DNA of 64,000 bases from Kordiimonadales bacterium IMCC3096 (GTDB lineage: Bacteria > Pseudomonadota > Alphaproteobacteria > Minwuiales > Minwuiaceae): NCBI GenBank assembly GCA_016865035.1, contig CP018227.1, forward strand, positions 1,892,001-1,956,000. Reading direction: 5' to 3'. The notes under the pieces were generated by a model. That model did not search any database. It saw only the letters and a list, made by a program, of their open reading frames with translations, and was not told the origin of the DNA. Positions 58,430-60,205 of this stretch are shown here, one piece after another. How positions within the stretch are numbered: position 1 is the first letter of the stretch; each line of letters opens with the position of its first letter. Made by a program: the position numbers and the translations under genes.

Positions 58430-58621
58430 TCAGGCAAAAAGTGCGGTGAAGGCCTTCCTGATCGCCAGCAGGCTCTTGGCTGATTCTTCTGCCCGCGCCT
58501 TCTGTGCGCGCGCCAGATAGTAGTCCATGTCAATCGAGCCATTCTCCCGCAGGTGCACTTCTGTGCCCGGAGTGCGGTTCATCGCATTGAATTCATTGAG
58601 GTTGAGTTGCTGGTATTGCAT
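58430..58621 (-). CDS. Small protein of an unrecognised paralogous pair, member 1
   Basis: 63 residues starting MQYQQLNLNEFNAMNR and ending RAEESAKSLLAIRKAFTALF plus A. It shares 25 of 63 residues (40%) with the protein encoded at 58911-59102: the N-terminal MQYQQ[LI]NLN[DE]FN, a central G..D.D, and the C-terminal RA..AR and RKA...LFA. The C-terminal half is a likely amphipathic helix. There is no signal peptide. The start is fixed by GGAGAG 5 nt upstream. Its control region is nearly identical to that of member 2. I do not recognise the family. Confidence 0.8.
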   Translation of the reverse strand: MQYQQLNLNEFNAMNRTPGTEVHLRENGSIDMDYYLARAQKARAEESAKSLLAIRKAFTALFA

Positions 58622-58683
58622 TTGAACTCTCCATCTTCAGCGAGGGTCTGTCGGGTCAGGCGCCCCTCGCTCAACGTCTGACT
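58622..58683 (-). promoter_or_regulatory. Structured 5' leader of small gene 1, predicted H-type pseudoknot
   Basis: In transcript order: A GTCAGACG (58682-58675), B AGCGAGGG (58671-58664), A' CGCCTGAC (58662-58655), B' CCCTCGCT (58646-58639), then Shine-Dalgarno GGAGAG (58632-58627). A pairs A' at 7 of 8, B pairs B' at 8 of 8, with connecting loops of 3, 1 and 8 nt, a geometry suited to an H-type pseudoknot. The same layout occurs at 59103-59164. Confidence 0.6.
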
Positions 58684-58689
58684 GAAACC

Positions 58690-58756
58690 AATATGTTGCC
58701 GGACAGCGCGAATGACAAAAGATCATCTCTCACCGAGAAGATGAATCAAATTCATC
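58690..58756 (-). promoter_or_regulatory. Promoter and LysR-type box of small gene 1
   Basis: On the minus strand: palindrome GATGAAT-N3-ATTCATC (58756-58740, containing T-N11-A), a conserved TGAGAGATGATC block, -35 TTGTCA (58718-58713), 17-bp spacer, -10 CATATT (58695-58690). The box centre is about 65 bp upstream of the expected start near 58683, the usual LysR recognition position. Confidence 0.7.
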
Positions 58757-58848
58757 AATAAGTACCGTAGATGCCCTGCTGCTTCGCGGCCGGCATGCCC
58801 GGAGCCATGCATTCCGCGCAATGCTATATTGCGCTGCATCATAAATGC

Positions 58849-58882
58849 CGAACGCCGCCGCATTTCGGTGCGACGGCGTTCG
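58849..58882 (-). terminator. Strong hairpin 28 bp past small gene 2, probable terminator
   Basis: Arms CGAACGCCGCCGCA (58849-58862) and TGCGACGGCGTTCG (58869-58882) pair at 13 of 14 around a 6-nt loop. On the minus strand it is followed by GGCATTTAT, a weak U-tract. A smaller perfect repeat (GCGCAAT/ATTGCGC, 58816-58834) lies beyond. Together they separate the two small-gene units. Confidence 0.55.
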
Positions 58883-58910
58883 AAACGCTTAACGAAAGGT
58901 TGATATCAGG

Positions 58911-59102
58911 TCAGGCAAACAGGCGCAGCATCGCCTTGCGCATGCCGTTGATGCCCTTCAGGGTCGCGGCGGCGCGTGCGGCATGCGCCCGCTGCTCGAT
59001 CGCGTCCAGGTCGAGAAAACCGAGAGCTCCAGTCTCGCCATCGACGGGGCTTGACTGCTTCAGTTCATTGAAATCATTCAGGTTGATCTGCTGGTACTGC
59101 AT
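58911..59102 (-). CDS. Small protein of an unrecognised paralogous pair, member 2
   Basis: 63 residues starting MQYQQINLNDFNELKQ and ending KGINGMRKAMLRLFA. The start is ATG 59102, aligned with member 1 and preceded by AAGGAG at 59115-59110; a GTG one codon upstream is possible. Between the conserved ends, residues 15-30 differ completely from member 1. The C-terminal half is alanine-rich and probably helical. It lies between a structured leader and a terminator-like hairpin, and is divergent from the LysR gene at 59294. Confidence 0.8.
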   Translation of the reverse strand: MQYQQINLNDFNELKQSSPVDGETGALGFLDLDAIEQRAHAARAAATLKGINGMRKAMLRLFA

Positions 59103-59164
59103 CACGATACTCCTTGCTCAGCGAGGGTCTGTTGGGTCAGGCGTCCCCCGCTCAACGTCTGACT
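59103..59164 (-). promoter_or_regulatory. Structured 5' leader of small gene 2, predicted H-type pseudoknot
   Basis: Transcript order: A GTCAGACG (59163-59156), B AGCGGGGG (59152-59145), A' CGCCTGAC (59143-59136), B' CCCTCGCT (59127-59120), Shine-Dalgarno AAGGAG (59115-59110). Relative to copy 1, B changes at one base (A to G), giving a G-U pair that keeps the stem. A, A' and B' are identical and loop lengths are conserved. Confidence 0.6.
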
Positions 59165-59170
59165 GATTGG

Positions 59171-59236
59171 AATATGTCAACAGTGCTGACGCTTGACAAA
59201 GGATCATTTCTCATCACATTGATGAATTCAATTCAT
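59171..59236 (-). promoter_or_regulatory. Promoter and LysR-type box of small gene 2
   Basis: Palindrome ATGAAT-N3-ATTCAT (59236-59222), block TGAGAAATGATC, -35 TTGTCA (59199-59194), 17-bp spacer, -10 CATATT (59176-59171). Spacing of every element equals that of copy 1, although the spacer sequence differs. The box centre is 65 bp from the expected start near 59164 and also 65 bp before the divergent LysR start codon. Confidence 0.7.
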
Positions 59237-59293: not shown

Positions 59294-60205
59294 GTGCCCA
59301 GAAGATTGCCCCCGCTGAATGCCCTGCGCGTGTTCGAGGCCGCGGCGCGCCAGCTCAGTTTCACGCGCGCGGCGGAGGAGTTGAATCTGACGCCGTCCGC
59401 CATCAGCCATCAGATCAAGGGACTGGAGGACCTGCTGGGTGTGAAACTGTTCGAGCGTCGCCAGCGCAAGGTGCTGCTGACCGCTGCCGGCGGCCGCTAC
59501 TATCCGGCGCTGCGCCAGGCATTCGACCAGATGAACGAGGCGACGGAAGCCCTGAAGGCGGAAGACAGTTCAGGTTCGCTAACGGTCAACGTGCTGCCGA
59601 CCTTCGCCATGCGCTGGCTGGTGCCGCAGCTCTCCGCCTTCCAGAAGCGCCACCCGGAGATCGAGGTGCGGATGACCACGAACGTGGAAGCCATCGACTT
59701 CAGCCGTGTGGAGGCCGATGCGGCCATCCGCTATGGCGTCGGCGGCTGGAAGGGACTGACGGCCAAGCTGCTGCTGCGGGAGGAGATCGTGCCTGTCTGC
59801 AGCCCGGCGCTGCTGGAAGGCCGACCGAAGCTGAGGACACCGGCGGATCTGGTGCATTACCCGCTGCTGCATGACGTCAACCGCCCCGATACCTGGCGGC
59901 AGTGGCTGACCGCCGTGGGGGAGACCGGTGTCGATCCTGATCGGGGCCTGAAGCTGGACACCACCAACCTGGCAGTCCAGGGCGCCATCCAGGGACTGGG
60001 CATCGTGCCCGTGAACCCGAATCTGGTCCGCCCGGAGCTTGAGGCGGGCACGCTGATCGAACCGCTCGATTTCCACCTGGCGGTGAAGGGGGGCTATTAC
60101 CTGGTCTATCCGGAAGGCCGCGAGAGCAGGCCCCGCCTGAAGGCTTTCGAGACCTGGCTGATGGAGGTCACGGCGGAGGCGGAGGAGCGGCTGCAGCAGT
60201 CCTGA
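59294..60205 (+). CDS. LysR-family regulator, GcvA type
   Basis: A 303-residue regulator. The HTH (about 6-65) reads LNALRVFEAAARQLSFTRAA and LTPSAISHQIKGLEDLLGVK, the GcvA/AmpR subfamily pattern. The ligand domain begins with LTVNVLPTFAMRWLVPQLSA. The start is GTG 59294, 6 nt after GGAGGG. It is divergent from small gene 2, and the T-N11-A palindrome at 59222-59236 lies between them, so autoregulation and activation of the two small genes is the natural model. The effector is unknown. Confidence 0.93.
   Translation: MPRRLPPLNALRVFEAAARQLSFTRAAEELNLTPSAISHQIKGLEDLLGVKLFERRQRKVLLTAAGGRYYPALRQAFDQMNEATEALKAEDSSGSLTVNVLPTFAMRWLVPQLSAFQKRHPEIEVRMTTNVEAIDFSRVEADAAIRYGVGGWKGLTAKLLLREEIVPVCSPALLEGRPKLRTPADLVHYPLLHDVNRPDTWRQWLTAVGETGVDPDRGLKLDTTNLAVQGAIQGLGIVPVNPNLVRPELEAGTLIEPLDFHLAVKGGYYLVYPEGRESRPRLKAFETWLMEVTAEAEERLQQS

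Follow-up and report, generated by a model that had tools for sequence, protein, structure and literature searches.

A narrowly distributed structured leader RNA, probably an H-type pseudoknot, precedes RSP_7527-type small-protein genes in Minwuia

Tandem small-protein genes and their surroundings

Within the window (the whole stretch of 64,000 nucleotides that was analysed), two genes for small proteins lie next to one another and adjoin a divergent gene for a GcvA-like LysR regulator. The first small protein belongs to the RSP_7527 family (NCBIfam NF046098, with a curated cut-off of 26 bits), and the second, which scores slightly below that cut-off, is referred to here as RSP_7527-like. The genes and the sites around them are as follows:

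58430-58621, minus strand: small protein 1, 63 aa, RSP_7527 family (28.3 bits)
58911-59102, minus strand: small protein 2, 63 aa, RSP_7527-like (25.2 bits)
59294-60205, plus strand: divergent GcvA-like LysR regulator (355.5 bits to PRK11139.1)
58690-58718, minus strand: copy 1 promoter, TTGTCA-17-CATATT (promoter scan)
59171-59199, minus strand: copy 2 promoter, TTGTCA-17-CATATT (promoter scan)
58742-58754, minus strand: copy 1 T-N11-A LysR-type box, TGAATTTGATTCA (from sequence; a similar box lies upstream of relatives)
59223-59235, minus strand: copy 2 T-N11-A box, TGAATTGAATTCA (from sequence)
58848-58883, minus strand: 15-pair hairpin in the copy 2 3' UTR, conserved in copy 2 of genomes G003 and G006

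Two sigma-70-like sites were found in the region, against 0.4 expected, and both lie directly 5' of the leaders. Upstream of each leader are a T-N11-A box, a GTGAGAAA-like stretch and TTTGTCA, an arrangement that also precedes related small genes in genomes G001 and G005 and is looser in other families. Because the same upstream arrangement recurs before related genes, control of the small genes by a LysR-type regulator is likely, and the GcvA-like protein is probably, to judge from these sequences, the activator of both. The VtlR/LsrB regulon of Brucella and Agrobacterium offers a parallel, in that a LysR-type regulator there activates small proteins together with sRNAs (PMC12595884, PMC7486931). 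The small proteins of that regulon are DUF1127 proteins, however, whereas the Minwuia regulator is GcvA-like and a different box is present at these promoters. A literature search for a link between DUF1127 and pseudoknots found nothing relevant.

In Rhodobacter sphaeroides, two reports (PMC9779115, PMC8625941) describe an RpoHII-dependent promoter for the transcript of RSP_7527, whose product falls in the same protein family (NF046098) as those of the Minwuia genes, and an sRNA, UdsC, that is cut from its 3' UTR. The Minwuia element differs in being a leader, and no mention of a leader structure for RSP_7527-udsC was found in the parts of those reports that were consulted. The 3' UTR of copy 2 in the window (58885-58910, minus strand) contains ATCAACCTTTCGTTAA, which is similar in relatives, and is followed by the strong hairpin at 58848-58883, a probable terminator of copy 2. 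By analogy with UdsC, it is possible that this 3' UTR also gives rise to a 3'-UTR-derived sRNA. Located 3' of the hairpin is a palindrome, GCGCAATATAGCATTGCGC (window 58815-58850), whose core is also present after copy 2 of G003 and G006 and which resembles the VtlR motif CAATGCAGCCATGCA (PMC12595884). The amidase gene ends with a 10-mer, GTCAGACGTT, that was set aside as a chance occurrence, since G006 and G003 do not conserve it.

Layout and occurrence of the 62-nt leader

Each small gene is preceded by a leader of 62 nt, which extends from the predicted transcript start (the A of UCAGUCAG) to the last base 5' of the ATG and comprises the following parts:

58622-58683, minus strand: copy 1 leader
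58675-58682, minus strand: copy 1 segment A, GUCAGACG
58664-58671, minus strand: copy 1 segment B, AGCGAGGG
58655-58662, minus strand: copy 1 segment A', CGCCUGAC
58647-58654, minus strand: copy 1 loop L3, 8 nt, constant in length and not in sequence
58639-58646, minus strand: copy 1 segment B', CCCUCGCU
58629-58632, minus strand: copy 1 Shine-Dalgarno GGAG, not part of the fold and invariant in all copies
59103-59164, minus strand: copy 2 leader
59156-59163, minus strand: copy 2 segment A, GUCAGACG
59145-59152, minus strand: copy 2 segment B, AGCGGGGG, forming one G-U pair with B'
59136-59143, minus strand: copy 2 segment A', CGCCUGAC
59120-59127, minus strand: copy 2 segment B', CCCUCGCU
59110-59113, minus strand: copy 2 Shine-Dalgarno GGAG (from sequence)

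The initial annotation had described four segments in the order A, B, A', B', beginning at the predicted 5' end of the transcript, and this layout was confirmed in both leaders, with loops of 3 nt (L1), 1 nt (L2) and 8 nt (L3). Since the sigma-70-like promoters sit directly upstream, A is predicted to begin at about +2, in agreement with the proposed 5'-terminal position. The pairing claimed for B and B' likewise holds at 8 of 8 positions in copy 1 and, counting the one G-U pair, at 8 of 8 in copy 2. Between A and A' there are seven pairs (GUCAG.CG/CG.CUGAC) and a single constant A.C mismatch at the sixth position, which had gone unmentioned. The whole element measures 44 nt and ends 6 nt upstream of GGAG. 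When both leaders were subjected to dinucleotide shuffling with generous loop ranges allowed, the interleaved layout (at least 7 of 8 and 8 of 8 pairs) recurred in 18 of 20,000 and 11 of 20,000 shuffles, or roughly 1 in 1100-1800; simple hairpins of 8 bp, by comparison, are fairly common, appearing in 12-14% of shuffles.

DNA and covariance-model searches recovered nine copies of the leader in five of seven Minwuia genomes (two each in G000, G003, G004 and G006, and one in G002), and all nine precede a 63-aa RSP_7527-type small protein. Two covariance models, R1 and R2, were run against overlapping sets of 385 class-level and 289 relative genomes. No convincing copy outside Minwuia was detected in approximately 390 alphaproteobacterial genomes, no further convincing copy was found in the 289 relatives, and model R1 gave no leader match at 28 RSP_7527-family loci from other genera. 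Weak non-Minwuia matches, nine of which were inspected, fall mostly inside long open frames and were taken as chance. These include the match at L097, which is in no long open frame but is gapped, and that at L095, where the locus ends at the contig end and placement is inexact. Searches of Rfam 15 at the gathering score and at E values up to 10 returned no relevant match, bearing out the earlier remark that no described RNA class was known to have these sequences. The leader is a real, new and narrowly distributed structured RNA element, found in Minwuia only among the genomes searched.

Leaders from G001, G005 and G008 were considered as members and rejected; hairpins are present in them and a convincing A-A' helix is absent. 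The loci L070 and L083 (in G001 and G005) are more distant homologues that adjoin the same LysR-type box, probably use a GTG start, and have a leader of about 59 nt with a different hairpin, GGCGGGA/TCCCGCC.

In G000, G003 and G006, the two paralogues of a genome share 86-93% identity in the element, as compared with 46-59% in the promoter and 52-56% in the coding sequence, and the similarity stops at the borders of the element. The two copies of G004 are 64% identical in the element. The single-copy lineage, G002, has the most diverged leader as well. Its coding sequence is placed in the tree with the copy-1 type (82% to cy_G004), whereas in the promoter it is closer to the copy-2 type (90% to cx_G004 versus 54% to cy). 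This combination suggests that G002 is probably a recombinant in which one tandem copy was lost near the leader.

Helices B-B' and A-A'

The nine leaders align without gaps, each exactly 62 nt long, while their loop sequences turn over. Helix B-B' is paired in 98.4% of cells across the nine copies, with two-sided changes at three pairs (A-U/G-C, C-G/U-A and G-C/A-U) and several further variants retained as G-U. RNAalifold, a program that does not model pseudoknots, arrives at B-B' without any prompting. With both helices taken together, 98.3% of cells pair, and none of 500 shuffles matched either the percentage paired or the covariation score; slid registers in the same test pair just 28-42%. 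Helix B-B' is real, as its compensatory changes indicate, and the covariation in homologues that had been called for is present for B-B'; A-A' is without two-sided change. The earlier proposal of a conserved structured leader is thereby supported by the nine gap-free copies of fixed length and by the covariation of B-B'.

Helix A-A' is paired in 98.2% of cells, two of its pairs change only to G-U, and one cell is broken. The seven paired columns of A are invariant in all nine copies, and identity across deep lineages is 100% for A, 84% for A', 51% for L1 and 40% for L3. A sits at the start site, so a constraint on initiation could also have conserved it. The start site probably does hold A in place, and this would account for the changes in A' being mostly to G-U. 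Eight of the nine copies have an unchanged CUGAC in A', with variable sequence on either side, and a column-shuffle test matched the A-A' pairing in 29 of 2000 trials (p ~0.015); single-sequence duplex tests of A-A' were weak (p 0.04-0.45). In G002, the gapless A-A' pairing has two mismatches, one of which is shared by all copies, and its energy is unfavourable. On this comparison among copies, the A-A' helix is likely to form.

The order A, B, A', B' and the loop lengths are constant in all nine copies, with A-A' weak in G002, and an H-type pseudoknot with loops of these sizes is sterically feasible. In an approximate calculation that sums the helix energies and applies a Dirks-Pierce-type penalty, the knot comes out ahead by about 3 kcal/mol in three genomes (G000, G003 and G006), and the balance is neutral in G004. 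The H-type pseudoknot put forward in the initial annotation is the best geometric fit for the leader, with covariation on the side of B-B' and with A-A' a likely second helix. The option offered alongside it, that A-A' and B-B' are mutually exclusive hairpins, does not hold, because the two helices share no nucleotide; the summed energy also favours their coexistence in the copies of the window. In predicted nested folds, the Shine-Dalgarno sequence and AUG are unpaired only in part.

The evidence also has to be weighed against a simpler arrangement, which we consider rather improbable, in which the B-B' hairpin alone is functional as a 5' UTR stem-loop upstream of the Shine-Dalgarno sequence, A is conserved as an initiation region, and the match of A' is accidental or has another cause. 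The restriction of covariation to B-B', the invariance of A in G002 despite its altered A', and the B-type hairpin (GGCGGGA/TCCCGCC) that G001 and G005 retain in a comparable position, with no convincing A-A', are all consistent with such an arrangement. The conserved CUGAC, the constant loop lengths and the column-shuffle result weigh against it.

Proposed role of the leader

We favour, with moderate confidence, a functional structured leader in which B-B' and A-A' form a pseudoknot and which acts by its structure rather than through a small ligand. B would pair with B', and A, from about +2, would most likely pair with A' within the B-B' loop to give an H-type knot. Such a knot may close off the 5' end and hinder the decay pathway that depends on this end and involves RppH and RNase E, and the fixed stretch carrying the Shine-Dalgarno sequence and AUG would be kept free just 3' of it, leaving the mRNA stable and translated. 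The 5'-end-protection step, taken alone, is put forward tentatively. In ompA mRNA, a stabilising 5'-terminal stem-loop starts near the 5' end and the Shine-Dalgarno region lies downstream; the Minwuia leader may be analogous in this placement of the stem, and differs in being a probable pseudoknot.

Because both paralogues retain nearly the same element, a single shared partner, for example an RNA-binding protein, may recognise both leaders. One version of this idea, compatible with the pseudoknot and to our minds somewhat unlikely, is an autoregulatory or shared protein-binding leader, in which one of the two small proteins, or else a protein of ribosomal or cold-shock type, would attach to the knot and either block or aid 30S binding on both mRNAs. 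It would account for leaders that are near-identical between paralogues with diverged coding parts and promoters, for a likeness that ends at the element borders, and for the fixed sequence of the A/A' stem. No candidate protein has emerged, neither small protein is notably basic, and the loops are variable although they are a common recognition surface. A further extension, that the leaders form a new pseudoknot class which coordinates tandem small-protein genes through one trans-acting partner and evolves in concert, is in our judgement unlikely.

SAM-II and preQ1-II are riboswitches with H-type pseudoknot folds, short two-helix interleaved leaders close to the ribosome-binding site, and the Minwuia leader resembles them in size, topology and position before the Shine-Dalgarno sequence. 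A metabolite riboswitch of this kind, suggested in the initial annotation, is nonetheless very unlikely, because the loops are unconserved, the Shine-Dalgarno sequence is outside the fold and uncomplemented, and no Rfam class matches. Just one of 12 loop bases, in L3, is invariant in the nine copies, and all of L1 and L2 vary, unlike ligand pockets; the element is, moreover, limited to a single genus. The related suggestion that folding could hide or expose the ribosome site is likewise unsupported, since inspection of the segments shows none with complementarity to GGAG. It is similarly hard to credit a DNA-level inverted repeat (an operator or recombination site), even though the repeat adjoins the promoter and G002 resembles a recombinant of two copies near the leader: one-sided B-B' changes are nearly all to G-U, which argues for an RNA rather than a DNA dyad, and, relative to the predicted start, the element is on the downstream side whereas the LysR-type boxes are upstream.

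With the structured leader as the preferred reading, these data add a covariation-supported leader RNA to the RSP_7527 family, whose Rhodobacter transcript yields a stress-related regulatory RNA. They also provide a compact pseudoknot candidate in a poorly studied marine lineage, Minwuia, and a case in which a leader is near-constant between paralogues despite diverged promoters and coding parts.
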